The translations under genes were made by a program, and so were the position numbers. A DNA stretch of 44,997 nucleotides, taken from positions 1-44,997 of the forward strand of contig CAMDZB010000010.1 of NCBI GenBank assembly GCA_945910645.1, in the 5' to 3' direction. Each line of letters opens with the position of its first letter. Position 1 is the first letter of the stretch. This document shows, piece by piece, positions 1-42,300 of this stretch. Source of the DNA: an uncultured Spirochaetaceae bacterium. GTDB taxonomy: Bacteria; Spirochaetota; Spirochaetia; Sphaerochaetales; Sphaerochaetaceae. The notes beneath the pieces are model-generated. The model did no database searches. It had not been told where the DNA came from and was given only the letters and a program-made list of their open reading frames with translations.

Positions 1-4480
<4,480 letters not shown>

Positions 4481-26803: not shown

Positions 26804-28018
26804 TTACCTTACGTTTACGAAAAGCTCCGTCTCCTGTACGCCGAGGGCTGCCACTCCAAAGAATGATGCACCTGTGTCAATCATGGATGAAATGCTACTT
26901 ACCAGTGGTAAGATAGCAAACAATATCATTGCATAGTCTTTGCTCTCTATTCCAATAGCGTTAAGTGAGGTTGTCACTACAAATAGTACCTCAAGTCCAG
27001 GATGCATAAGAGCGCTTGCACCTGAGAGTGCAAGTACAATAAACGGAAGCGTAAAATACGCGCTGATATTAACAGCATAATCGTTATACTTTGCGATGAT
27101 GAACACCACAACAAAACTCACAAACGCAACTCCAGGACGTGCGCACAAGGTCAGGAACGGCGTCATACTTGCAGCGTTCTTCTTTGGAATGCCGTTTTCG
27201 TGTCTTAATACCACCTCTTCACTCGGGATTGAGAACAAAACATTGCGTGTAAAGAACGATGAAAGTGCTATGGATAAACTTGAAAAAGTGAGTGCAAAAG
27301 CTGTTTTCCTCTGAAAATGACTTCTGGTAAGGTACATGAGCGGATACACAACAAATAGAAGAACAAGAGCGCCAATAAAGAGGATAATCAGAAGGTTTCT
27401 AACCTCTTTCCCTACACTCTGAAATCCAATGCTCATAAACCAGAATGTGCCTATGAAAAACAACGCAAAATTATAAACACGCGCCATGAAGCGAGCAAAT
27501 CTAAATCCAATTTCAGTAAATGAGTTTAGAACAATATATGCAGGCCTGATCACATCAAGATCCGGCTTTGTAAAATAGCCAATCAAATATGAAAGAGCCA
27601 CTATGAGCAAAAGCAATTTATATGGGGATGAAAAGAGTCCGCCATCGCTAAATAGATCGTATGCAGATGTCATCCCTGAATCTATGATGTCGGATGGACT
27701 TGATGCAAAGTCTACATTCATAAATGTAGGGAATATAACAGACATAATGTACGAGAGCAGAACGGATACTACCATCGAAAGGATGCCCCAGATTATCGTC
27801 TTTAAAAACGTCTTAAAGAATGTCCCCTTTCGCCTTAAGGATGCAACTGATCCCACGGTTGTAAGTAGGGCAAAAAGGCAGGATATCATCACACCGCCTT
27901 GAAGAAGCTTATACGATACATTCTGGAAGAATTCCACCACAAGCTGTACATTTCTAAACGAGAGCGCCATAACGGCTGAGAGTATAAATGCCAAGAAGTA
28001 CGTAAGGCTATACTTCAT
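26804..28018 (-). CDS. Divergent DAACS/SDF-fold protein (dicarboxylate/amino-acid:cation symporter-like)
   Basis: This is a 404-residue polytopic protein. Its order of hydrophobic segments and the C-terminal run GASALMHPGLEVLFVVTTSLNAIGIE, then LVSSISSMIDTGASFFG, align by eye with the second hairpin and TM8 of GltPh-type symporters. The Asp of TM8 is kept (MIDTG). The following Arg that binds the substrate carboxylate is Ala, and the Asn and Asp of the Na+ site are Gly and Leu. The NMDGT motif of TM7 and the serine-rich first hairpin are also missing. The transported substrate, if any, is unlikely to be aspartate or glutamate. Of three ATGs in a row inside the end of the amylase gene, the third (28016-28018) has the best distance to GAGG. 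Confidence 0.6.
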   Translation of the reverse strand: MKYSLTYFLAFILSAVMALSFRNVQLVVEFFQNVSYKLLQGGVMISCLFALLTTVGSVASLRRKGTFFKTFLKTIIWGILSMVVSVLLSYIMSVIFPTFMNVDFASSPSDIIDSGMTSAYDLFSDGGLFSSPYKLLLLIVALSYLIGYFTKPDLDVIRPAYIVLNSFTEIGFRFARFMARVYNFALFFIGTFWFMSIGFQSVGKEVRNLLIILFIGALVLLFVVYPLMYLTRSHFQRKTAFALTFSSLSIALSSFFTRNVLFSIPSEEVVLRHENGIPKKNAASMTPFLTLCARPGVAFVSFVVVFIIAKYNDYAVNISAYFTLPFIVLALSGASALMHPGLEVLFVVTTSLNAIGIESKDYAMILFAILPLVSSISSMIDTGASFFGVAALGVQETELFVNVR

Positions 28019-31000
28019 CATCATCCTCGTCTTTTTCTGAACATTTTGTATAGTTTTCCTTAAGCGTATTGTAGTCGTAGCGCGTGTTATCAGAGAGGCT
28101 GTATAGAAGCGTGTATGAGTCGACAATCCTTATAACATCCCTATCGCCTTCAACCTTGAACATCAGATCAGAAAGTGCCTTGAACGTTGACACCTCCTTA
28201 AAGCGTGAAAGGTCAAAGTAAAGTGTACCCTCGTACTCATTAAGCTTTATAAGCGTTGTAAACTCACTGTTTTCAAGAAGCGCTTTAATGTCATCAGGCA
28301 ACTTACGTGTCTCAAGCATGAGGTAGGCATACCACTTGATGCGTTCCATTCGCTCTCTATCGATTGCTCCGTCCTCTTTCTTAAAGCGATATGTAAAGAA
28401 ACGTAAAACTGAGCGGATAAATAGTAAGAGTTCATCGCTGTCTTTTATCTTATCTAAAAACGGAAGTATCACCATGAGCGTTCCGTATAGCTCCTCCTTG
28501 TTTGGTATGACGCTGAGCGCACCATCAAGGAATAGCGGCATCTTTTTACGCGTAAGCTGGAAGCCTTTGAGCCACTTCTTCACGATTTCAAGAGTGCTTT
28601 CTGTATCAAACTCTCTATATGATGAGAAGAAATCATCGTTTTTCAGCTCACTCTTAATTGCATCATACGTGGTTCTAAGAAGGGTGGTAAGCGTCTTTTG
28701 AGCCTTTGGACTTGATGTTTTAAGTAGGGTTGCTATCGATGCAAAGTAGCTCTCATCAAGTAAAGGCGCCATTGCACTATAGAGCGATGAGAACATCAGA
28801 TCCTCACCGGCATCGTTGATATCCTCAACTCCGCGCCTTCCAAACTTCTCAAAGAAGCGCGCATATATCCCAAACCTGTCAGTAAGCGTTCTGATGTTTT
28901 CAAACACTTGGGTTTCAAAGCCGTTAAGATCAATCCAGAAGCCCTCTTTTTCAATCTTTGAGATTGGATATATGTGATAAAGCTTATCGTTAAGCGTCTG
29001 ATATAGCATGAACTTATCGTTTCCTCTTTCAAGGTTCAGGGCGTTTATGAACGATACGTTTCTTAAGGTTTTCTTGCCGTTTTCCTTCGTATTCTTGCTT
29101 ACAGACATCGTAACCCTGCCGTTTGCCTTAGAGTACGAGTTGTTGTAGAACACAAACACCTTATCAGGTCCCATGCCGTTTGCGTATGCATAGACGTTCT
29201 CCTCGATGCCTCCGTGTTCATTCACAAGGTCGAAGAGTTCAAACGCTTTAGTTCCTGAGAAACATCTTCTCTTCTTAAGAAGTGGGAAGATTAGGGTTTT
29301 ATGCGCATCTAAGAAGGCGTAGTTTGGCGTCTCATCCCACTTTGGCGATGAGAATTCCATTCCGTATTTTTCTCTAAATCCCTCAAGCTGGCCGTGTCCG
29401 AACATAGGAAGGCCTGGGAGTGTTGATAAAAGCGTTGCACATCCAAAGTACTTATCCCCATCTCCAAAGCCCTCTATGGCGGCATCCTCATCAGGATTGT
29501 TAAGGAAATTTACGTAACGCTGCATGATTTCAGGATCAAAGGCGAGCGTCTCTTTAATGCCATCCCTGTATTCCTTGTTCGCTTCGTTTCTCAGCATGTT
29601 CATAAATGCGCTGTTGTATACGCGGTGAAGGCCAAGTGAGCGTACAAAATACCCTTCCATCATCCAGAATGCCTCAGCAAGAAGAAGCGTATTTGGTGCC
29701 TCTTTTTGCACACGATCCACAACCGTTTTCCAGAACTCCTCACCCATAAGGCGTGCAAATTCTTCATCGCTCATTGTGTGGTCTGCACGTCCTGGTATGT
29801 CGCCTGCATGTCCTTCCTCAGGATACCATAGGCGTCTTATATGCTTCATTGCAAGCGTCATTGCAGCATCAAAGCGGATTATAGGAAAGTCGCGTGCAAC
29901 ACGCAAAATCACACCGATTACGGCTTCCCGCACGTCCTTATTAAGGTAATTAAGCTGTGCAGTGTCGTTCCATGGCATACTTGTTCCATCGTTACCGTGG
30001 AAGATAAAACGCGTCTCCCCTGTGTTTTTATCGCGCCTTAGAAAGGTTACAGCGCAGTCTGACTTGTTAAAGTAGTGATCCTCAATCTTAATCTCAACAT
30101 TTGGATCCGAGGAGAGATCCTCACCGTTATATGTGTATGATGCAAACGGTGAATAGCTCTGGCTTATAAAGTACTCAGGGTGCTCAATTACCCATGGCGA
30201 GTCTATTCCCGTATGGTTTGGAACCATATCCCCACAGAGGCGGATATGATAGTTACTAAGACGCTCCTTAAGGCGATGAAGTGAATCCTGACCTCCAAGG
30301 CGATCTGCAATCCTATATTCGTATAGCGAGTATGCAGAGCTCTCCGCATCGCTGTTACCACAAAGGCACTTTATGCGTTTACTTGCAGGGCTTCTCTCCC
30401 ACACACCGATGAGCCAGAGGGCGTTAAAGCCGCTGTCTCTTAAAAATATAAGCTCCTCATCTGGAATCTCATCAAGATGAGTTATGGATCTATTGTATTT
30501 CTTTGAAAGCTGTGAGAGCCAGACAAGGGCATTCTTGGCAATCATCACAACATTAGGCATCCAATCCCTATCCTCAGTGTACGCCTCAATGCCATCAAGA
30601 GTTCCTAGCTTGAACTGTGGCTTTCCACTTCCCGTAAAGTGAGGCTTTCTGAACTCACTAATATAATCACGTGCCTTCTTTAGAAGCTTGAGCACATTTT
30701 CACTAAGGTATTCCTTCCAGTGCTCAAGGATGTACGAAAGCTGATCCTCAAGCGATGTTGGAAAGAGTATAGATGGCTTATTTAGAAAATCAAAGAGCGA
30801 ATCAATATCGTTCTTTTTAAACAGCCCCTTTGTGCTCACGCTCTGGTATGGCAAAAATGACGATAAGAAAAAGATAGCGTCCTTTTCAATATTGAACTCA
30901 TCTGATTTAAAAGCAACCTCTGCATTCTCTATAATTGCAGGGTTTGATGTGATAACATAGTACACGAATAGAGAGCGGAGCGTTTCAGAGAGCATCTGAT

Positions 31001-31349
31001 TCTTTAAAAGCTTTGTTGGAAATGCCATATCATACTGTTTTAGTGATGATTTAAAGGTAGCATTCTTCTCGTTGAGTTTTGTGTAGTCTTTAAAGAGCTG
31101 AATCCTGCTTGTTTTTATAACGTGTGTAATCACATCCTGGTATGCAGAATGAAGCACACCAATTAAATAAAATGAGAGTGAAGAATACTTTCCTGTTTCA
31201 TAAGAAACATTCAAGAGATGCGCAAATTCATCTGCAACTCTATGAAAAACTACAGGTGGATCCTCTGTATTAAAAAGGGGCTGAATATAATCAGTCTTTT
31301 TTCGTACATCTACTGATATTCGTAAATCTCTATTGTCCGCATTCTTCAT
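28008..31349 (-). CDS. Large GH13 alpha-amylase-family protein
   Basis: This is a 1113-residue protein without a signal peptide, so probably cytoplasmic. An N-terminal helical region of about 250 residues precedes a GH13 barrel. Conserved regions are VPNH (about 375), RFDAA with the nucleophile Asp (about 493), LLLAEAFW with the acid/base Glu (about 558) and a fourth region NFLNNPDEDAA (about 615-625), where the usual His before Asp is Pro. GLPMFGHGQLEGFREKYGME follows. The last roughly 350 residues are helical and unassigned. Likely work is on storage glucan or malto-oligosaccharides, but the exact reaction is unknown. I start at the ATG at 31347-31349; a TTG six codons upstream lies within the promoter. 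No ribosome-binding site is visible. Confidence 0.85.
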   Translation of the reverse strand: MKNADNRDLRISVDVRKKTDYIQPLFNTEDPPVVFHRVADEFAHLLNVSYETGKYSSLSFYLIGVLHSAYQDVITHVIKTSRIQLFKDYTKLNEKNATFKSSLKQYDMAFPTKLLKNQMLSETLRSLFVYYVITSNPAIIENAEVAFKSDEFNIEKDAIFFLSSFLPYQSVSTKGLFKKNDIDSLFDFLNKPSILFPTSLEDQLSYILEHWKEYLSENVLKLLKKARDYISEFRKPHFTGSGKPQFKLGTLDGIEAYTEDRDWMPNVVMIAKNALVWLSQLSKKYNRSITHLDEIPDEELIFLRDSGFNALWLIGVWERSPASKRIKCLCGNSDAESSAYSLYEYRIADRLGGQDSLHRLKERLSNYHIRLCGDMVPNHTGIDSPWVIEHPEYFISQSYSPFASYTYNGEDLSSDPNVEIKIEDHYFNKSDCAVTFLRRDKNTGETRFIFHGNDGTSMPWNDTAQLNYLNKDVREAVIGVILRVARDFPIIRFDAAMTLAMKHIRRLWYPEEGHAGDIPGRADHTMSDEEFARLMGEEFWKTVVDRVQKEAPNTLLLAEAFWMMEGYFVRSLGLHRVYNSAFMNMLRNEANKEYRDGIKETLAFDPEIMQRYVNFLNNPDEDAAIEGFGDGDKYFGCATLLSTLPGLPMFGHGQLEGFREKYGMEFSSPKWDETPNYAFLDAHKTLIFPLLKKRRCFSGTKAFELFDLVNEHGGIEENVYAYANGMGPDKVFVFYNNSYSKANGRVTMSVSKNTKENGKKTLRNVSFINALNLERGNDKFMLYQTLNDKLYHIYPISKIEKEGFWIDLNGFETQVFENIRTLTDRFGIYARFFEKFGRRGVEDINDAGEDLMFSSLYSAMAPLLDESYFASIATLLKTSSPKAQKTLTTLLRTTYDAIKSELKNDDFFSSYREFDTESTLEIVKKWLKGFQLTRKKMPLFLDGALSVIPNKEELYGTLMVILPFLDKIKDSDELLLFIRSVLRFFTYRFKKEDGAIDRERMERIKWYAYLMLETRKLPDDIKALLENSEFTTLIKLNEYEGTLYFDLSRFKEVSTFKALSDLMFKVEGDRDVIRIVDSYTLLYSLSDNTRYDYNTLKENYTKCSEKDEDDDEV

Positions 31350-31355
31350 ATTTTG

Positions 31356-31364
31356 ATTATAACA
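31356..31364 (-). promoter_or_regulatory. Extended -10 promoter of the amylase-led operon, predicting a leaderless mRNA
   Basis: TGTTATAAT (31364-31356) is a perfect extended -10 element. The expected start point seven bases after it is 31349, the A of the amylase ATG. The -35 region overlaps the U-tract of the preceding terminator and has no consensus. It is the only promoter-like sequence before a ten-gene run ending at 19487. Confidence 0.6.
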
Positions 31365-31370
31365 CAAGAT

Positions 31371-31428: not shown

Positions 31429-34400
31429 TTACGTTGTTGTTGTGGACTTTGGAAGGATCGTCCTATAGAGACGTAAACCATAACGCTCCTTATTCACCAT
31501 GTTCAATCCACCAAGGCTGTTCCTACTAAGATCAGTCATCTCGTTGATATTAAACTTATATATCTCTTCTTTCTGATCAGCCCATGATCCACTGAACACG
31601 TAAGGTCCTCCTGAGGTAATAGCCCTATCATTAAAGTTACCTAGCGTAATTTCAATTACGTTTCCGGACATATCATAAAGTCCAAGGAGATTTTTCTTTG
31701 CACCATTGTATCTGATGGCGTCTGCACCTGTAATGTACTTACCTACAGGCTGAGTACCAGGATCATTTGAATACAAACCACCGTAGATGACATAGTCTTT
31801 AAGGCTTTCATGGTTTGTAAGTGTGGATGTTGTGTCAAGACGCTTATCATAGCCTGATGGAGCATTATAAGTCTGCGCATAGAAATTTGTAGGAAGTGAA
31901 GGTGTTTCATTATAAGATGCTTCCCCTGAAAGCGCCTGAGAAGATGATGATGATGCATAGAGGTATTCGCCAACCGTTGGAAGTCTGAATCCTGTCTTGT
32001 CTGCACCAAATCTACCATATGCGGTGTCAGCCTTATCTAAGTATTGAGGATAATGATTATGAATATCCGCAAGTCTAGATTTATCAGTAGCAGTTACAGA
32101 CCTAATTATTGAATTATCTGTATTGAGATATACAGGTGTAAGGGCAACAGCGTTACTTCCATTTATTGTACGCATGTTTGCGTTGTACCATTCTGTTGCT
32201 GCGTTACAGAACACCATCATCTCGTATACAGACATACCAACGATTGGGTCAACTGCACTGTTTCTGTTCCTAGCTGTTCCCTGAGTTCCATTATTATATC
32301 CATAATACTCAGTGGTACTGCTATCAAACGTGTATCCACCTGATGGTGAGGTTGCCCATGTATAGATCTCCTTAAAGAATCCACCTGTCACTGGGATATC
32401 AGCAACTAAGAAGTCGTTATGGATCTTCTGTGTATAGTTTATAGTTGGCCATGAAATGCCACCCTGTAAGCGATAGAAATCCATCTGCTGCTCAGTAGGA
32501 TATGGGTGACGTGTTTCTCCTATAAAGTCTTTGTAGTATGGGCTATACGCTGCACCTTGCTTGATCTTAAGTGATGATGCCTTATCAACATTGAAATACT
32601 TATTGTCAACATTAACAACAGTTACGTTTTTTCCTGTTTCTGTATGCGGTTGGAGAATTACACCATCGCCGTTTACACGCTGCTTTGTTATGTTCTTAAT
32701 ATGCTTATCGTCGAATGTGAACGACGGCGTAAATTTAACAGAGCTTGCTCCCTCAGGAATTGTAAGCGCTGCATTGATTCTACCATAAGGAATAAGTTTT
32801 GCAGTAGAGTACTTGCCGTTCGCATCAGGCTCTGAATAGAATTTGTAATTAACGGTAAGCGTTGATGAAGTGTCAATGCTGCCATCAGCTTTCAACACTC
32901 TGTGTGATACGGGAACTTCCACACCCTCTGAAGGTGTTTGAACAAATTCAATACCGTTATTTTTACTCACATCATCAAGTTGTACGATGAAGTACTGGTT
33001 ACCCTCAATAGCAGCCTCTTTATTTAGGATCACCTCGTTCTGTGACAACTTAATTCCAACATTGTAAACAGGGTTAGGGTTGAAAATTTTGACTTTGACC
33101 TCTCCTCCAGTTGCAAAAGTCGGCTGTGTAACATCTTTAGAATCAGCTGCAGCAAGGGTATCTGATGCAGGGATTGTTAAGACCACATTACCACTTAGTG
33201 TTCCTGATCCTGTTGGATAACCTGTAATCGCAATATCAACAGTCTTGATGACATCAATATCAACAGTATCAGATACCTTTTCAACAGGCCCAATAGTCAC
33301 AGAGTAACTGAGCGTATTTTTTGAATTGTATACAGAGTTAAAGGAATTAAGCCATTTGACCACTGATGCAGTATCAAGATCTGGTCTGAAGTACGTCTTA
33401 TCATTGGTAATAGAGAGTTTAATACCCTTAGTTGTATCAGAGCCGATTCTCACATATGGAATAAACTTGACATTGGTAAGCACTGTTGTTCCATCGCTGT
33501 CGTATGCTGTACCACTAATTGTGTAGTCCCCACTTGGACTATATTGAATGTTTGGCTGCTGAGGCATAGTAAGGCCAGTAACTGCATTTGCAATGCTATT
33601 AGAGGTAATCAGGAGAGGTAGGCTTGTACTTGCAGCATTTGTAACGAATGCTCCTTTGACCCTGAATGTGAGTGTAGTTTTAACGTTGCCTATATCAGGA
33701 TTCGTGTCGCTAGCGCTTGTTGACTTGATTATCTCACTCTTCTGTTCAACTACCTCAAGCCCTTTCTTTGGATCAACTGCGGATTCATTTCCAATGTCGA
33801 TAACGCTAGAAACATTCGTAAACCATGTCCTTAATTTTGTAGGAGTCATAGCTTCAAACTTTCCACCAGTGAGAGTCAATGTGACAGTCTGCCCCTGTCC
33901 ATATCCAAGGTAAACCCTGTGTGGAGCTGAAAGATTAGCATTATTTGATGAAATCCTAAGATTATCATATGACTTGTAGCTTACAGGGCTTGTAAGGCTA
34001 GGTGCCGTATTGGTATTAGCTATGTCATAGTCAGCTGTGGTAAAGTTCGTGATTGGCACGCTGATATCTGCTGTGTTAAGCGTGAGATTTGGAATCGTTA
34101 TGTGCCCTGTGATTCCCACAACCAATGTTGACTTTGCTGTTGTTGTCTTTTCAAGCTGGCTATAATCAAACTGGAAGTAATTGCCGCCAGCCTGTCCTGT
34201 TGACAATTCATTAAGCTTTGCAAACCACCTCTTAACTTCAGCATCTTGTATATCAGTCTTAAACATTGGTGTGATATCAGCACCCTCTGGCTTATTAAGC
34301 GTAAGGAGAACCTTAATGCCGTTGCCGTCTCCAAGTTTGATGTATGGAGTTCCAGCAATTGGATTTGTGCTTGAACCATAGTATCCTTCTGCAGAGCTTA

Positions 34401-37400
34401 TCGTAAGTGTAACATCATCAGTGACGTTGTAGTAGATGTCTGTGTTAAGGTAGAGTGCTTCATTGTTCTCGTTAACTGTTGTGCCTGTGTTATCAAGGGC
34501 GCTGTATGGGATCTTTACAGTTGTTGTACCCCTACCACTGATTGCTGTAGGATTTGGTGCACCAGTTACTCTGATGAGGAGTGAATTTGTATGAAGGCCT
34601 GCACCTGCAATATCCACATACTCGAATTTAACAGTTCCACCAAGAAGATCGCTCAGTGGCTTGAACCATTCTGCAATTCCCGCATTAATAGCATTCTTTG
34701 TTGCCTCAGTATCATCTTTTTTGTCTAATGAGCCACCAAAGAGTGCACCATCAAACTTGAGCATGATTGAAACGCCATCACCTGTCTGTCCAAACTTGAA
34801 GTATCTTGTTGCAACAAGGCTCTTCTCAGCACTGCTTCCTACATACGTACCCTCAGACTGTGGGACTGCTGATACATCCTTAAGGCCTGTTGTATCATAT
34901 CGTGCCCCAGTAATTAGTAACTTCTGACTATCATCCTGAACTTCTCCTGTCTTTTCCTCAGGACCACCATATTGAATATAATTGTATGGAATATAAATTG
35001 GTACATTCTGATCACTTGATGTCGCAGCAGCGTGAGCATAGCCGTTAAGTGTTACAGTTAAGATGTTACCCTTAATAGGCAGCACTGTTTTATCAATAGT
35101 ACACGAAATACCACTAAAAGCATTTTTGAAGTCAGAGTCATTGATGCTCTTTGCAAGTGATTCTTGAAGTGCTATAAGTTTTTCCTCAGTATCCACATTG
35201 AAATTACCGTTTGTAAGCTCAATGCGGATCTTTACAGGGTTTGTACCTCCAATATCCATCCATTTGTATGAACCTACTCCGAGTGGATTATTTTCATTCA
35301 TGCCATAGTTTTGTGATTTTACAAGAGCAGCCTTTACCATCTCATCTGTCGCCATGTAGAGGTTAACAGCATTAGGCGCTCCTTCATCTGTATTTCCAAG
35401 CATTATGTCATCATCTGTAACCATTTCACCATGTGGATTTGCTGCAAGTATATGCTTGTATTTAATGAGTAGACTCTTTGCAACTGTTCCCGTTATCTCT
35501 TTATTTGCGTAACCTGTCACCTTTACATCGATGTATGACTTTCCAGCACCACCGCCGTTTGTAGTATCAAGCTCATATGCAAGGATGCCATATTCTCTAG
35601 TGATCTCTGAGAATATATCTTTAACCATTTCATTATCAAGGTTTTGAGCAAAGCGAGCGTTAGAGAGTTCAACTCTTACAATGACACCATCCTCACGTTG
35701 GTCTGTATTATCGCCAGTAGTAGCACCAGTATTTGTACTTCTTCCAAGATTGATAAATGGCTGTCCTCTAAGAGGTGAATCAGATGATCCTACAAATCCT
35801 GATGTTGTTGAAACGTTTGCAATCACAGCACCTTTGTTCTTAAAGAAGATCTTTGTTGTGTATTTGTCCTCATTAAGCGCACTTGAAGCAAACTTTATGT
35901 AATCCTTCTTGATCTTAAGCTCTGTGCCAAGCTCTGCAAATATTGCAGTCTCATCAGGTAGGTTGTAACCTGTAACCTTGATGACAATGTGATCTTCTGC
36001 AATGCTTGAGAGTAAATACTTACGTGTGCTGTTATCCTTAGGATCTTGAGGGATCTCTATGACTGTACCTCTTATATCCTCATTCATTTTTGTGCTATCA
36101 GAAAGGATTGCATTTAGCTTTGCTGTGTCAAACCTTGCGTTCTGGAGGTTTAATTTGAGTGCAAGTCCGTTTTCACTCTCAGCGTATGAGATGTATGGAG
36201 CGGCCTCAAGTGGAACGCCCTGGCTTCCGTAGAAGTTCGCATCGTTATCCGTAACACTTGATGATACAAGAGATGATGTCTGGTAGTATATTGGAATTGT
36301 CCGTGTTACAAAATCATCCACAGCACCTGCAAGGTCCATAGCTTCTATTTTAATTGATGTTGATGAGTTTGTATTTGGCTTTGTTGGATATCCTTTAATC
36401 TCAATTATAATGCTCTGAAGTCCTTTAGCATTTTCTACTTTATTACCAGTAGAAGGATCCTTGATTGTATAAGAATCGTTAGATTCTGTACTATCACCTG
36501 CTTGTGGATCAACCCATGTTCCACCAACTGCATCTTTGAAGTTTTTAAACCACTCTGCCACTCTTACACTATCAACTTTTTCGCTGAATGTTAGCCTTTT
36601 AGCTTCGCCTGTAATGTTGAGTTTAACTCTCGTTACAGGATATTCTATTGGAGTTCCAGATAATGAGACTGAGTAGTTATAATTAATATATGGTGTTCCC
36701 TTAATTGGATTGTTCAAACTACCAAAGTACGCATCACCAGTATCGATTTCAACATTGTCAGCAGGCTCAGTCCTGTAGTAGACATTAAGAGGTGTTGGAA
36801 CTTTTTCATACGACTCATGGACATTCTTAAGTACGCTGTATGGAATATCAAAGGTATTCACACCATCAAGGCTACCAATCGTTGGGTGACCTGTCACAGT
36901 AAACACTATGTTGTCTTTACCTACTCCTGTATTTTCACCACTTTCAATTACAAAGTTTATTTTAGAGTTATTCACATCTCTTACAAACGAATCAAACCAG
37001 ACCTTCAAGAGTTCTCCAGTTATGTTGTCATTAAATACAGCGTTCTTAAGCTGGATCTTGATCTTGTTACCAAGGTTGTTTGACCCAAAGTTAATGTATG
37101 GAGTTCCGATAAGCTTATTAGCACTTGTTCCTACATAGCCAGTCTCTGATGAGATAGTTGCCGAGATCTTTGATGTGGCATCTGTGGTCTCATACTTAAT
37201 TGCGTTATCCTGATTTGCTTCCTCCTCAAGGGAAGTGATCTTACCGTTTGTATCAACAATACCCTTACGTAAGCGGAATGTGCTTGGTACATTTTCAAAT
37301 ACGAGTGCAGGGATTTGCTGCTTGATAAAACCTGTACATGATGATGAATTAAAGTAACCTTGAATATTCACATCAACCCATGTACCGTTTGTATCGTATG

Positions 37401-40400
37401 CAGCAATTGTTGCTTTTTCAATTGTTACATCAGAATTTTCTTTAAACCAGCTCGTAACAATAGCACCCACTGCAAGTGATGATGTTTTAAACTTAACAGG
37501 ATGATTCTTTGCCGATGGTAAAATATCCCCAACATCACCTTCTCCATATGCATAGCCCTGTTTGTTGCTGATTCTCACCTTAAATCCTGATGGTATTGAG
37601 CCTGTACCATCATCAAAGTATGTCTTTTCTGGAGCTGTTAAAGCTTTCGCCTCAGATCCGTAGTAACCAGTCATATCCTCAATTGTTAGGATCGAGAAAT
37701 CAGCCAGTCCCCTATAGTAGATGTTCTTTGTGAGGCTTGATGTCTGCCATTCACTGTCCGCAGAGGCATTTTGAATGTCAGCAAATGGGATCACTACTCT
37801 AAGATCTTTAGCACTAGCGCTCCATGCAATGTTACTGTAGCCGTGGATTCTGAATTCAACAACATTAGGAGCGTTTGCATCCTGTCTAATGTCATCAATG
37901 TGTGTCTCTTTTCCATCTTCAACATTCATAATGTCTCTTATGTCTGGAATCCACTGTTCGATGTCTGATGCTGTGAGTCCCTGTCTGAATGCACCGCTTG
38001 AAAGCGTGATCTTAACACGGTATCCAAGAGCATGGTCGCTGTCTATCAAGTAGCTCTGAGAGAGCCACATTGGGTTTGTGCTTTCTGCACCTGTGTATCC
38101 TGCATCGTTAGAGAGCGTAATAACAGGTGTAACTCCTGTGTAGAAGTTAAAGCTATTGTTAGTAATCTTTAATGTGTTATCGACACTCGAAATTCCGCCG
38201 AGCATATCCTCATATGGAAGTGTGAATGTTGTGGCTCTTTGAATGTTTGGAACTTTTGCATAACCTGTCATCTTAAGGGTTAGCGGGTCTGTACCCTTAC
38301 CATCAACGTATTCAACCTTAAGTGATGAGGCACTGTCAGCAACGTCTCCCACCACCGTCTTAATAACGTCAGTAGCGCCTGTATTGAACCACTTCATCAC
38401 TTTTTCTGATGTTAGAGTATCGCTGAACTTAAAGTCGGTCCAGTTCTTGTTATCAGTTATTTTATCTGATGAGAGCTTCAGTCTAATGAATCTCTCTCCT
38501 ACATTAATATAAGGGAGGGCATCTATTCTATTATCATAGTCTGACGCAACAGATCCTTCTACTATTGTCACAACAGGCTTGTTACCTGTTCTATAATACA
38601 ACTGAGGATTTTTAATTACAGATGCATCAGTATCGTCTGATGTACCGACTTTCCAGTTCTGGAGTTTATCAGGTGGAATAATGACACTTTGTGTTAGTGC
38701 ATCAGATGATGTTGCTGATATTGAGTAGCCGTTCAAGCTTACGATTATTGAACTCTGATCAGTCATAATCAACTTTACAATTGCACTTGTAATTTTAACA
38801 TTTGTATTTGATGCAAAGACAAACCAACTCTTGATATCTTCACCAACGCTGAGGTTCGTAAACTTAGCTCTTTCAAGGTTGATTCTTATATCCTCACCGC
38901 TTCCGTTTGCAATACCAACATAGTAAGGAATTGATACAGGGTTAGAAAGCTCAGCACCCTTATACACAGTATCAAATTTTGCGCTTGCCTTATCCTCAAT
39001 CTTAAAGTAAAGCGTGGTTGTCTTGTTGCCCTGAGCAGCAATTGCACCATCAATTGCAGTCCATGGAACTGTTACAGTGACAACTCCGTTATTAGGTTGA
39101 GCTGTTGCAGGGACGTATCCTGATATTAAGAGCTCAAGTATGTTCTGGCTTGATGCTGTAGTGTCCGTTGTAATATTAAGTTCAGTTGCGCCAATTGTCT
39201 CTTTAATCTGATCAAACCATCCTAGAATCTCTGAGTCTTTCTGACCTGTAATAAACTCATTCTTAAACTTCTTGTTTGAAAGAATAAGGCGAACTCTTGA
39301 TCCTCTTGTATTGTTCTCATCACCTGTATAGAATCCTGGGACAAACTGTAATGGCTTTACAGCACTTGAGCCGTAATAGCCTGTGGTATCAGAGATGTGA
39401 ACCTCTACATCTGTAGTCTTAATAAAGTAACAATGCTGTGTTATGGAGTATGTCTTATACGTCTCACCAAATTGAATGTGACTTAGTGGAATTTCAATAT
39501 CGCCATAAGATGGCTGTGCGTTTCCTCCATCAGATCCTGATGTTGCAGACTTACCTGTTCCTATGATGCGGATTACGATTGTGTCTTCTCCGCTGCCGCC
39601 TGATAGTATCTCTGCGCTGAGGTCTGAGAGGAACCAATATGCGATGTTTTCAAACCATTGTTTTACATCAGTTACACTCAAGCCATTCTTAAACTTGCCG
39701 TTGCTGAGTGTGATCTTAATTTGTGATTCGCTCTTCTCGTTTGGAACAGCGATGAGCGGATAGCCCTCTGTTCCTCTAAAGTCGCCGTCCGTATTGTCTA
39801 GAATAGCAAGTGTAACTTCACTAGTTACCTTATATGGAATGTTCTTGACAATAGGAGTTGCAAACTTTGCATTCTTAATGTATTCAGGGCTGATTGAAAT
39901 CTGAAGATTGCCTGAATTCTTAAGAGTATCAGTTTCTGTTTTATAGTAGTTCTTAAAGCTACCTTCAAGGTTGATAACAAGAGATTTTTTCTTACCGTCT
40001 GCATCAGCAATCACCTCGTGTACTGTTACAACCGGGTTGTCAATTATGCCATCTGCATTTATAAGCCACTTTGTGATGTCTTGACCCTTAGAAAGTCCTT
40101 CAAACTCAGCCTGTTTGTCTTGACCTGTGATCTCGAGGCTGTCGTTGATTGTAAGGAGTATTAGCTGACCGTCTGTATCATCTCCGTCTGTTTCTTTTAC
40201 GCTATGGATGCGTAGGTTCTTAACGCCTTCAATAGGCTTTGTCGGATAGCCGTAATATTTGATATCGTTATCTTTTACAGTGACATCATATGCAATCTCT
40301 CTCCATATTGCTGTAAGAGACTGATTCTCCCTTCTGTTCACAATTGCATTATTATCATCATCTGGATTATAGACGTTGTTTTGCACCTTCTCGCCAGTCA

Positions 40401-42300
40401 CATCGTCTCTCCACTCAACAAAGAGCCAACCAGGAACTGGATGATTCTTCTTGATATCTTCAAGGTCTACGAGTGTTATCTGATTTGGCTTTGTCCATTT
40501 AGCTTTTGCAGAATAGTTTCTGTCTGGTTTAATAAGTTGTGATATTTGTCCTTGACCGTTTATGATACCACCGCCAGATCCTTCTGTTATTTCGTAACCA
40601 CCGAATATGAATTTATATTTTGTGGCATCGTTATTGCCGTTTAGCCTTGCTTTCTCTGTGTCAAATGCACTCTTGAAGTCAGATTCCTCTTTAATATCGC
40701 TGTTGCCAAGGTTGTATGTTATATTCCAAATTTTCTCAGGTATGGTTATTGTTGGAAAACCATCGATTGTGAGAATCTTCTTTTCAGGATCACTTATTAT
40801 TGCGCCAGGCTCTGATACATACCACTCATTTACCTCTGTTGCATAGAAAATGCCGTCAGGAATATCAACCTCTGTTTCAACCTTTGCCCCATTGGCTTCT
40901 TTTTCAACTTTTGCTTTTGGTTCCTTTGTTGCGTTTTGAGAATCTAGGGTTACACCGAACACCTTGTTCTTTGTCCACTTTGCGGTGATTGTGATTGTTG
41001 GAACTTCATCAACTGCCTCTGCCCTATCCACCTTGAATGTGTATTCACCAGGAGTAGCTTCATTGATCTTAGTAGTTCCTGAATAGAACCCATCAAACCT
41101 CCATCCATAAGCAGAAGGTGCCTTGAACGAAATTGTAGGTTTTTTATCCTCATCAACAGAGCCCAACCATCTCCAATCAGCTGTTACCTTTCTCTCTTTC
41201 GAAACAAAGTTGCCAGGTTCGATTGACTTATTGATGTCACCTTCACTGCTGATATACTCAGTTGTTCCAAATTTATATCCCTGGAACGACCACGATATTG
41301 TTCTGTTAAACTGATTGTCGCTAAATGCTACCTGCATCTCATCATCAGACGGATAGTCAACACCTGGTGTTCCATTCTGTTGGTTCTCATGTACAAATAC
41401 AACCTTCCACTCCTTTTTTGGAAGCTCATCTAAACTAAGCTTGTCTATAGTAGGTCCAAGCCCGGTACCTCTATCATCACCTTCATTACCACCAATGGTA
41501 CTGAACGACCATTTGTGATCCAAATAGTATAGGGTAGTTTTTCCTTCATCTTTTTTTGCAATCTCTGTGTAGTCATTATTCACATCACCGTTACCCCATG
41601 GTTTTAAAGTAAGTTTTTTTACAACAGAGTCATTCCATACACCGTATAGAGTCTCGTTGCCGAAGAGCTTCTTTGACGATGTGACTACTTCTGATGAGGA
41701 ATCACCTTTTGGTGTTGAACTTCCCACCTTTGGTTTATAACCTACAAATGAAAATACACCATTTTTATCTACGATATTCTTTTCAAAATTAACAGTTGGA
41801 GCATCACCCCAATCTGCCGTGATAGTGGTGTCGCCCTTAATGGAAGGATATGAGTTAGTCTGATTAACGAGCATAATATGCCCGTCTTCGTCTATAAAGC
41901 CCTTATAGCCTTTAAATTTAACTTCTGCTGAAACAGAACCACGAGGCTCCTCATACTGTTGTGTTTTTTCATCATAACGACTAGGAGTTGGTTTATAGTC
42001 ACCTACATACACAGTAGGGTCAACATACGTGATCGCTGCCGTGTATTTGAGAGTAGGCTTATCGATAGGGTTCTCAGACGGTGTAAGCTTCTCTTTGCCG
42101 TCTGTGTTCTTGTACCACGACTTATCAAGAGGGTTATAGAAAATCTGCGTGGTGCCCCTTGTATCTCCATTGCTTATAAGAGTTAGCTTGTAATAATACG
42201 GCGTGCTGTCATCATCACACGATGTGATAAAGAGCCCCACTGTAAAAATCAAAAGCAACGCTGCAAATAGAGTTTTTAATGTTCTGTTAAAATTTTTCAT
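31429..42300 (-). CDS. Giant repeat lipoprotein with C-terminal FGE/C-type-lectin-like domain
   Basis: This 3623-residue protein begins with a type II signal peptide (basic MKNFNRTLK, a hydrophobic core, then ITSC with lipidated Cys28) followed by DDD. Residues about 30-680 contain InlB/Flg_new-like units ending in TADW, TAKW, KAKW or TAIW. Residues about 680-3070 hold some sixteen divergent repeats of about 150 residues. A further beta-rich spacer (about 3075-3290) leads to a C-terminal domain (about 3297-3611) with FCNAATEWYN, GFRLPTVGEYLYAS, LLGLYDMSGNV, FSGSWAD and YGLRLYRT, the FGE/SUMF1 signature order. The paired catalytic cysteines of FGE are absent; the protein has only about five cysteines in all. 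It is probably a surface-anchored adhesin or ligand-binding filament. It has its own promoter and terminator. Confidence 0.9.
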   Translation of the reverse strand: MKNFNRTLKTLFAALLLIFTVGLFITSCDDDSTPYYYKLTLISNGDTRGTTQIFYNPLDKSWYKNTDGKEKLTPSENPIDKPTLKYTAAITYVDPTVYVGDYKPTPSRYDEKTQQYEEPRGSVSAEVKFKGYKGFIDEDGHIMLVNQTNSYPSIKGDTTITADWGDAPTVNFEKNIVDKNGVFSFVGYKPKVGSSTPKGDSSSEVVTSSKKLFGNETLYGVWNDSVVKKLTLKPWGNGDVNNDYTEIAKKDEGKTTLYYLDHKWSFSTIGGNEGDDRGTGLGPTIDKLSLDELPKKEWKVVFVHENQQNGTPGVDYPSDDEMQVAFSDNQFNRTISWSFQGYKFGTTEYISSEGDINKSIEPGNFVSKERKVTADWRWLGSVDEDKKPTISFKAPSAYGWRFDGFYSGTTKINEATPGEYTFKVDRAEAVDEVPTITITAKWTKNKVFGVTLDSQNATKEPKAKVEKEANGAKVETEVDIPDGIFYATEVNEWYVSEPGAIISDPEKKILTIDGFPTITIPEKIWNITYNLGNSDIKEESDFKSAFDTEKARLNGNNDATKYKFIFGGYEITEGSGGGIINGQGQISQLIKPDRNYSAKAKWTKPNQITLVDLEDIKKNHPVPGWLFVEWRDDVTGEKVQNNVYNPDDDNNAIVNRRENQSLTAIWREIAYDVTVKDNDIKYYGYPTKPIEGVKNLRIHSVKETDGDDTDGQLILLTINDSLEITGQDKQAEFEGLSKGQDITKWLINADGIIDNPVVTVHEVIADADGKKKSLVINLEGSFKNYYKTETDTLKNSGNLQISISPEYIKNAKFATPIVKNIPYKVTSEVTLAILDNTDGDFRGTEGYPLIAVPNEKSESQIKITLSNGKFKNGLSVTDVKQWFENIAYWFLSDLSAEILSGGSGEDTIVIRIIGTGKSATSGSDGGNAQPSYGDIEIPLSHIQFGETYKTYSITQHCYFIKTTDVEVHISDTTGYYGSSAVKPLQFVPGFYTGDENNTRGSRVRLILSNKKFKNEFITGQKDSEILGWFDQIKETIGATELNITTDTTASSQNILELLISGYVPATAQPNNGVVTVTVPWTAIDGAIAAQGNKTTTLYFKIEDKASAKFDTVYKGAELSNPVSIPYYVGIANGSGEDIRINLERAKFTNLSVGEDIKSWFVFASNTNVKITSAIVKLIMTDQSSIIVSLNGYSISATSSDALTQSVIIPPDKLQNWKVGTSDDTDASVIKNPQLYYRTGNKPVVTIVEGSVASDYDNRIDALPYINVGERFIRLKLSSDKITDNKNWTDFKFSDTLTSEKVMKWFNTGATDVIKTVVGDVADSASSLKVEYVDGKGTDPLTLKMTGYAKVPNIQRATTFTLPYEDMLGGISSVDNTLKITNNSFNFYTGVTPVITLSNDAGYTGAESTNPMWLSQSYLIDSDHALGYRVKITLSSGAFRQGLTASDIEQWIPDIRDIMNVEDGKETHIDDIRQDANAPNVVEFRIHGYSNIAWSASAKDLRVVIPFADIQNASADSEWQTSSLTKNIYYRGLADFSILTIEDMTGYYGSEAKALTAPEKTYFDDGTGSIPSGFKVRISNKQGYAYGEGDVGDILPSAKNHPVKFKTSSLAVGAIVTSWFKENSDVTIEKATIAAYDTNGTWVDVNIQGYFNSSSCTGFIKQQIPALVFENVPSTFRLRKGIVDTNGKITSLEEEANQDNAIKYETTDATSKISATISSETGYVGTSANKLIGTPYINFGSNNLGNKIKIQLKNAVFNDNITGELLKVWFDSFVRDVNNSKINFVIESGENTGVGKDNIVFTVTGHPTIGSLDGVNTFDIPYSVLKNVHESYEKVPTPLNVYYRTEPADNVEIDTGDAYFGSLNNPIKGTPYINYNYSVSLSGTPIEYPVTRVKLNITGEAKRLTFSEKVDSVRVAEWFKNFKDAVGGTWVDPQAGDSTESNDSYTIKDPSTGNKVENAKGLQSIIIEIKGYPTKPNTNSSTSIKIEAMDLAGAVDDFVTRTIPIYYQTSSLVSSSVTDNDANFYGSQGVPLEAAPYISYAESENGLALKLNLQNARFDTAKLNAILSDSTKMNEDIRGTVIEIPQDPKDNSTRKYLLSSIAEDHIVIKVTGYNLPDETAIFAELGTELKIKKDYIKFASSALNEDKYTTKIFFKNKGAVIANVSTTSGFVGSSDSPLRGQPFINLGRSTNTGATTGDNTDQREDGVIVRVELSNARFAQNLDNEMVKDIFSEITREYGILAYELDTTNGGGAGKSYIDVKVTGYANKEITGTVAKSLLIKYKHILAANPHGEMVTDDDIMLGNTDEGAPNAVNLYMATDEMVKAALVKSQNYGMNENNPLGVGSYKWMDIGGTNPVKIRIELTNGNFNVDTEEKLIALQESLAKSINDSDFKNAFSGISCTIDKTVLPIKGNILTVTLNGYAHAAATSSDQNVPIYIPYNYIQYGGPEEKTGEVQDDSQKLLITGARYDTTGLKDVSAVPQSEGTYVGSSAEKSLVATRYFKFGQTGDGVSIMLKFDGALFGGSLDKKDDTEATKNAINAGIAEWFKPLSDLLGGTVKFEYVDIAGAGLHTNSLLIRVTGAPNPTAISGRGTTTVKIPYSALDNTGTTVNENNEALYLNTDIYYNVTDDVTLTISSAEGYYGSSTNPIAGTPYIKLGDGNGIKVLLTLNKPEGADITPMFKTDIQDAEVKRWFAKLNELSTGQAGGNYFQFDYSQLEKTTTAKSTLVVGITGHITIPNLTLNTADISVPITNFTTADYDIANTNTAPSLTSPVSYKSYDNLRISSNNANLSAPHRVYLGYGQGQTVTLTLTGGKFEAMTPTKLRTWFTNVSSVIDIGNESAVDPKKGLEVVEQKSEIIKSTSASDTNPDIGNVKTTLTFRVKGAFVTNAASTSLPLLITSNSIANAVTGLTMPQQPNIQYSPSGDYTISGTAYDSDGTTVLTNVKFIPYVRIGSDTTKGIKLSITNDKTYFRPDLDTASVVKWLNSFNSVYNSKNTLSYSVTIGPVEKVSDTVDIDVIKTVDIAITGYPTGSGTLSGNVVLTIPASDTLAAADSKDVTQPTFATGGEVKVKIFNPNPVYNVGIKLSQNEVILNKEAAIEGNQYFIVQLDDVSKNNGIEFVQTPSEGVEVPVSHRVLKADGSIDTSSTLTVNYKFYSEPDANGKYSTAKLIPYGRINAALTIPEGASSVKFTPSFTFDDKHIKNITKQRVNGDGVILQPHTETGKNVTVVNVDNKYFNVDKASSLKIKQGAAYSPYYKDFIGETRHPYPTEQQMDFYRLQGGISWPTINYTQKIHNDFLVADIPVTGGFFKEIYTWATSPSGGYTFDSSTTEYYGYNNGTQGTARNRNSAVDPIVGMSVYEMMVFCNAATEWYNANMRTINGSNAVALTPVYLNTDNSIIRSVTATDKSRLADIHNHYPQYLDKADTAYGRFGADKTGFRLPTVGEYLYASSSSSQALSGEASYNETPSLPTNFYAQTYNAPSGYDKRLDTTSTLTNHESLKDYVIYGGLYSNDPGTQPVGKYITGADAIRYNGAKKNLLGLYDMSGNVIEITLGNFNDRAITSGGPYVFSGSWADQKEEIYKFNINEMTDLSRNSLGGLNMVNKERYGLRLYRTILPKSTTTT
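33085..40257 (-). repeat. About sixteen divergent ~150-residue protein repeats within the giant lipoprotein
   Basis: Each unit opens with a strand and a GYYGSxxNPLxGTPYIxxG-like motif. It continues with an amphipathic KIxLxLxNAxF segment and a helix ending in WF (also WL or WI), then a strand with xGY (VTGYP, IHGYS, MTGYA), and closes with IPYxxL and IYYxT. Opening motifs fall at about residues 682, 840, 977, 1117, 1257, 1406, 1547, 1726, 1861, 2027, 2173, 2336, 2490, 2645, 2788 and 2936. Spacing is 135-180 residues. The DNA copies are strongly diverged, so the array is old. I do not recognise the unit as a named domain. Confidence 0.8.

Follow-up and report, generated by a model that had tools for sequence, protein, structure and literature searches.

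A sixteen-unit array of an uncatalogued, probably immunoglobulin-like repeat domain in a giant spirochaetal lipoprotein

Introduction

Fibrillar adhesins are single chains in which a stalk of tandem β-domains carries an anchor at one end and a candidate adhesive domain at the other (PMC8286594), and periscope proteins similarly possess rod-like stalks of tandem folded domains, with repeats that are nearly identical in sequence and variable in number (PMC9704523). Among spirochaetes, long arrays of immunoglobulin (Ig)-like domains are found in the leptospiral Lig/Big_2 (PF02368) proteins, and the target proteins of diversity-generating retroelements in Treponema denticola are FGE/C-type-lectin-fold proteins, mostly lipoproteins, for which a surface role has been proposed (PMC4891356). 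Described here is a giant lipoprotein encoded on a 44,997-nucleotide stretch of DNA (the window: contig CAMDZB010000010.1, positions 1 to 44,997 of the forward strand, assembly GCA_945910645.1) of an uncultured Spirochaetaceae bacterium, in which sixteen units of a repeat domain absent from the libraries searched lie between a lipidated N-terminal region and an FGE/C-type-lectin-like C-terminal domain. The genome of origin (G000, 1.15 Mb, 95.7% complete; 'own genome' below) was compared with that of a sister species of the same genus (G001) and that of a further same-genus relative (G002); all are metagenome-assembled, with broken contigs.

The sixteen-unit array

A minus-strand open reading frame (ORF; window 31429–42300) encodes a lipoprotein of 3623 amino acids, with a lipoprotein signal, MKNFNRTLKTLFAALLLIFTVGLFITSC, at its N-terminus and a lipobox, LFITSC with Cys28, read from the sequence. 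Residues 671–3074 (window 33079–40290) comprise exactly 16 head-to-tail units of ~130–175 residues each, in agreement with a preliminary description that had placed about sixteen copies of a ~150-residue repeat at 33085–40257. All 16 were recovered, at domain E-values of 1e-12 to 1e-30, by a hidden Markov model (HMM) for which 100 units were taken from other proteins and none from the window protein; the same model gave no match to the reversed window protein, and no domain below E 0.005 in any of 20 shuffled copies. Alignment of the 16 units with MAFFT revealed one column of invariant phenylalanine and one glycine that is nearly so. The motif grammar that the preliminary description had read across the units extends to 116 units of two genomes, with conservation of Y (74%), G (96%) and P (78%) in the opening part; of the KIxL strand (L 80%), F (93%), W (85%) and F (89%) thereafter; and of the G of GYP (98%), IP (73%) and YY (79%) towards the end. 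Pairwise identity among the window units is low (median 21%, maximum 29%) and no DNA-level repeats of unit length were found in the array, ruling out recent tandem amplification.

Family status and predicted fold

The repeat domain is a real family, uncatalogued in Pfam, NCBIfam, PHROGs and PDB sequences, probably within a familiar superfold. None of these libraries yielded a match covering the repeats, upholding the earlier view of the domain as unrecognised, and the outcome named there as evidence to the contrary, a match of most units to an HMM of Ig-like, cadherin or MBG type, did not appear: Pfam search gave no Big_2 (PF02368) match above the gathering score in any unit; MBG and cadherin families were absent among the profile matches listed for 62 units, one of which has a YDG match that, at E 0.08, falls short of every threshold; and profile–profile comparison of the unit with the Big_2 repeats of G002 returned a probability of 0.1%. 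Matches to MBF2 on two paralogues, covering ~24 residues, were treated as chance.

AlphaFold2 modelling gave a predicted local distance difference test score (pLDDT) of 95.0 and a predicted template modelling score (pTM) of 0.88 for a single unit (unit 8, with the family alignment), and 92.5 and 0.86, respectively, for the adjacent pair of units 8 and 9. The single-unit model contains nine DSSP elements, seven of which are strands: two strands come first, followed by the long KIxLxNAxF strand, a pair of short WF-bearing helices, a further strand and then, in this order, the IxIxGYP, IPY and IYYxT strands. Foldseek comparison with the PDB identified weak neighbours, mostly Ig-like or other β-sandwich domains, including IgI3 of R28, SPD-2 of CEP192, Caf1, the Siglec domain of GspB, and sulfite oxidase; for the single unit, the best of these, IgI3 of R28, aligned with TM-scores of 0.44/0.53, and none reached E < 0.001. 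A fold search of BFVD gave no match. As the PDB neighbours are weak and mostly of this kind, the modelled unit is probably a variant of the Ig-like superfold, a β-sandwich with an inserted helix pair ending in WF, and has no close solved relative. The novelty proposed in the preliminary description thus holds for the family, which is unannotated, and not for the fold, which is predicted to be an Ig-like β-sandwich.

Conservation of unit number and order between species

The window protein and its orthologue in the sister species (contig C61, which holds the orthologue gene only, with no flanks) contain 16 units each, which find their best matches position by position with an offset of 0, at an overall identity of 27%. 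The collinearity statistic for this pair was 126.5, whereas 1000 column permutations reached 80.8 at most; that for a second pair of giants (4310/3844) was 228.8, against a permutation maximum of 128.7; and both halves of a giant apparently split between contigs are collinear too, the second half narrowly (p = 0.001). Non-orthologous array pairs gave no significant diagonal in the same permutation test. Orthologous giants are 27–31% identical (35% for the short one), compared with 58–82% for four housekeeping neighbours of the syntenic loci. Given this positional match and the gap in identity, the arrays predate the species split, their unit order having been kept while the sequence diverged rapidly; fast divergence with a kept architecture would be as expected of an exposed scaffold. 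Divergence of the copies, from which the preliminary description had argued that array length is held by selection, does not by itself bear that argument; the positional match of 16 units with the sister protein at 27% identity does lend it support.

Distribution of giant lipoproteins

An initial unit profile matched 58 stretches in the own genome and 48 in one same-genus genome; 59 other relatives gave no match. With an improved model (E < 1e-9), 60 units were identified in the own genome and 56 in the sister species, the only two of 139 genomes of the family to contain the long form of the unit. The domain is accordingly not confined to the window protein: at least four giants occupy 38 kb, or 3.3%, of the DNA of the own genome, their lengths being 3623 aa (the window protein), 4310 aa (C18), at least 3269 aa (C23+C18) and 1478 aa (C3). 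The third spans two contig ends, with its N-terminal part on C23 and its C-terminal part on C18, which appear to join into one giant, judging by the same arrangement in the sister species (C90+C36); the gene next downstream is another giant lipoprotein. The C-terminal part of the 4310-aa giant (L036:2530-4000), ~450 residues in which no domain is recognised and which show poor conservation in the sister species, may be a tip.

Anchor-proximal region and C-terminal domain

The N-terminal 640 residues of the window protein are InlB B-repeat-like; PF09479 is matched by orthologous and paralogous copies, and this region of the window copy has no Pfam match. The C-terminal domain matches PF03781 (FGE-sulfatase) at E 5.6e-8, with 33.2 bits against a cut-off of 23.3, and a C-terminal profile of three proteins matches 5aoh, PorK/GldK and, at E 6.4e-6, T. 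denticola TvpA (2y3c). The catalytic cysteine pair after the GGSW motif is absent, the domain region having Cys3365 as its only cysteine and GSWADQKEE containing none, which suggests that the domain binds rather than catalyses. A role as a retroelement target of the TvpA type was rejected: no RVT_1 (reverse transcriptase) match occurs in the assembled own genome, and no diversification system is therefore implied.

Lipoproteins of G002 combine tandem Big_2 domains (PF02368, E 3.5e-54) with a C-terminal FGE domain (E 4.9e-19), and FGE domains number 16 in G002 versus 6 in the own genome. A plan of lipid anchor, Ig-like stalk and FGE/C-type-lectin tip would thus be common to G002 and the own genome as read from their sequences, with a different stalk module in each. 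Adjoining the Big_2–FGE proteins of G002 is a 1229-aa protein (L121:11447-15133) with a YGTH...GG motif, MACPF-signature-like by eye. Directly downstream of the window giant (window 28008–31367) lies a gene for a large protein that is GH13-type amylase-like by eye. Feature coordinates are collected in Table 1.

Table 1. Features of the giant lipoprotein gene in the window and of related genes elsewhere (residue numbers in brackets)
Feature	Location	Strand	Basis or note
Lipid anchor (signal peptide and spirochaetal lipobox, LFITS-C28)	42217..42300	-	read from sequence
N-terminal region (30-670), InlB B-repeat-like	40291..42213	-	PF09479/PF18998 in paralogues/orthologue; no Pfam match in this copy
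Unit 1 (671-827)	39820..40290	-	profile search
Unit 2 (830-963)	39412..39813	-	profile search
Unit 3 (964-1101)	38998..39411	-	profile search
Unit 4 (1102-1240)	38581..38997	-	profile search
Unit 5 (1241-1390)	38131..38580	-	profile search
Unit 6 (1391-1533)	37702..38130	-	profile search
Unit 7 (1535-1707)	37180..37698	-	profile search
Unit 8 (1711-1846), AlphaFold2-modelled	36763..37170	-	profile search and model
Unit 9 (1847-2010), part of two-unit model	36271..36762	-	profile search and model
Unit 10 (2012-2157)	35830..36267	-	profile search
Unit 11 (2158-2320)	35341..35829	-	profile search
Unit 12 (2321-2472)	34885..35340	-	profile search
Unit 13 (2475-2628)	34417..34878	-	profile search
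Unit 14 (2629-2779)	33964..34416	-	profile search
Unit 15 (2782-2909), diverged opening strand	33574..33957	-	profile search
Unit 16 (2917-3074), diverged opening motif	33079..33552	-	profile search
C-terminal FGE/C-type-lectin-like domain (3291-3557), no catalytic cysteine pair, putative binding tip	31630..32430	-	PF03781, profile matches, cysteine list
Large Big_2 + C-terminal FGE proteins, G002	L121:902-5311, L121:15112-19224, L122:5906-11344
Tipless giant, own genome	L037:5479-11046 + L038:2-4240		C18/C23
Tipless giant, sister species G001	L042:1-2472 + L043:2689-7323		counterpart, C90+C36

Compact relatives in spirochaetes and a tailed phage

A compact form of the domain (~100–120 aa, ITL..F..DVSxWFxNLPxGL...GTP...IP) does not contain the opening GYYGS-NP-PY segment of the giant units. 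Comparison of compact and giant-unit profiles with HHalign (97.8–97.9% probability, E ~1e-13) identifies the two as homologous, and a compact-domain profile that includes no giant unit matches giant units at E-values down to 3.9e-12. Spirochaete proteins carry one or few compact copies: single copies occur in lipoproteins of other families (L077, L084, L085), genomes with the domain include G296, G444 and G435, and in G002 an ORF cut at the contig start contains two compact units, on a contig identical to CADBSO010000014.1 ('uncultured Spirochaetales bacterium isolate RUG14265', the RUG prefix presumably denoting rumen genomes). The form is sparse in the phylum (4 of 393 sampled genomes, two of these being the own genome and that of the sister species), contrary to an expected prevalence in Treponema. 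Two further carriers are an 865-aa lipoprotein of the own genome (L040:2770-5364, C1), which has a single compact unit, contains a HEFQH motif, resembles a zinc metallopeptidase and has no Pfam match; and a 3193-aa ORF of the sister species (L083:2-9580, G001 C49), in which numerous InlB-like repeats accompany a single compact unit and a leucine-rich, BspA-like C-terminus.

Outside the spirochaetes, a tailed-phage contig (IMGVR_UViG_2740892202) encodes, between major head and neck genes, a 1506-aa protein of ~ten compact units (L101:3859-8376), perhaps a head fibre or decoration protein. Searches of plasmid and phage record collections with tblastn gave no match to the compact proteins, and viral scans with the full window protein or the G002 protein revealed no relatives.

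Proposed function and alternatives

On balance, the array is probably the stalk of a giant surface protein of fibrillar-adhesin-like type, anchored by lipid at its N-terminus. This anchor would hold the protein in the envelope, with the InlB-like region next to the anchor; the 16-domain array would project outwards, reaching an estimated ~65–75 nm at 4–4.5 nm per unit; and the non-catalytic FGE/C-type-lectin-fold C-terminus would bind a ligand, for which glycans or proteins on plant particles, on other microbes or on the host surface are the likeliest candidates. The lipobox, the array, the predicted fold, the FGE-like tip and the conserved unit number and order are established; surface display, ligand binding and an extended shape along the whole array are inferred, the structural model covering two adjacent units. 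A stalk is the most likely role of the repeat domain by analogy with G002, where the same tip is found on Big_2 stalks, the best evidence available; and a rod keeping the C-terminal domain off the membrane is plausible, given the confident model of two units, the resemblance of the tip to TvpA and the Big_2 stalks found in the relative. Against this reading, the match of the window copy to PF03781 is modest; the C23+C18 giant (at least 20 units) ends no more than 5 residues after its last unit and is tipless; and no tip can be recognised in the 4310-aa giant. Presenting a tip is therefore not the role of every array.

That tipless paralogue would fit a second explanation, in which the units themselves bind ligand and the array offers many binding sites instead of acting as a spacer; a parallel is provided by the Lig proteins of Leptospira, whose Ig-like repeats bind host proteins (PMC2892007). 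The strong differences among units (median 21% identity), yet with positions kept between species, could likewise reflect position-specific functions. In the conserved columns, however, nearly every residue is structural (G, F, W, P, Y and core I/L), with no polar or metal-site residues conserved across units, and same-genus relatives place ordinary Big_2 domains in the position of the array, so that a binding role for the units is considered rather unlikely. An improbable third explanation, in which the giants cover the cell densely, as a coat or in the manner of an S-layer, and serve in protection or cell–cell contact, with no specific ligand, in a genome-reduced and possibly host-attached spirochaete, draws on the share of the genome given to giants, on the small-genome A. 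kunkeei, where up to 6% of the genome is devoted to giant surface proteins (PMC12863079), and on the position of the phage gene, which would put its compact domains on the particle exterior, but has against it the FGE/C-type-lectin-like tips on two of the proteins, which argue for binding, and the absence of any match to an S-layer motif or Pfam domain.

A bolder extension of the stalk proposal, offered tentatively and with considerable doubt, is that spirochaetes and tailed phages share a new superfamily of Ig-like stalk modules, with this domain as its founder, and that a genome-reduced rumen spirochaete lineage expanded the domain (~60 domains, 3.3% of the genome) into giant cell-surface fibres of fixed, position-specific order that serve as its main apparatus for attachment to a host cell or particle.

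A domain family absent from the libraries searched is now recognisable and accounts for thousands of previously unannotated residues in rumen spirochaete genomes. The arrays are a natural example of repeats that retained their number and order as sequence identity fell to ~27%, making it directly testable whether stalk length is itself a selected trait; and the exchange of stalks, with Big_2 in one relative and the repeat domain in two others beneath the same tip fold, is a clear instance of modular surface-protein evolution.

Comparison with known systems

Of the described spirochaetal systems, the leptospiral Lig/Big_2 proteins share the long Ig-like array with the window protein and differ in the module itself, the Big_2 model having 79 positions and the window unit ~140 aa with an inserted helix pair. 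TvpA (2y3c) and related FGE-fold lipoproteins of T. denticola are likewise lipid-anchored, with a non-enzymatic FGE/C-type-lectin fold at the end; TvpA has no giant stalk, and the own genome no diversity-generating retroelement. Periscope proteins resemble the window protein in the rod-like stalk proposed for it; unlike theirs, its repeats share ~21% identity and are conserved in number (16 and 16) between species. The closest correspondence is with fibrillar adhesins, whose definition (PMC8286594) the giants fit except that the stalk domain is uncatalogued, where fibrillar adhesins have a catalogued stalk family, and that adhesion is inferred, from a putative adhesive tip of FGE/C-type-lectin-like type; the anchor of the window protein is a lipid, and lipoprotein anchors are not mentioned in the main text of that survey. 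The giants are best regarded as a variation on fibrillar-adhesin-like surface proteins, not as a system of a new kind, and represent a striking genus-specific expansion.

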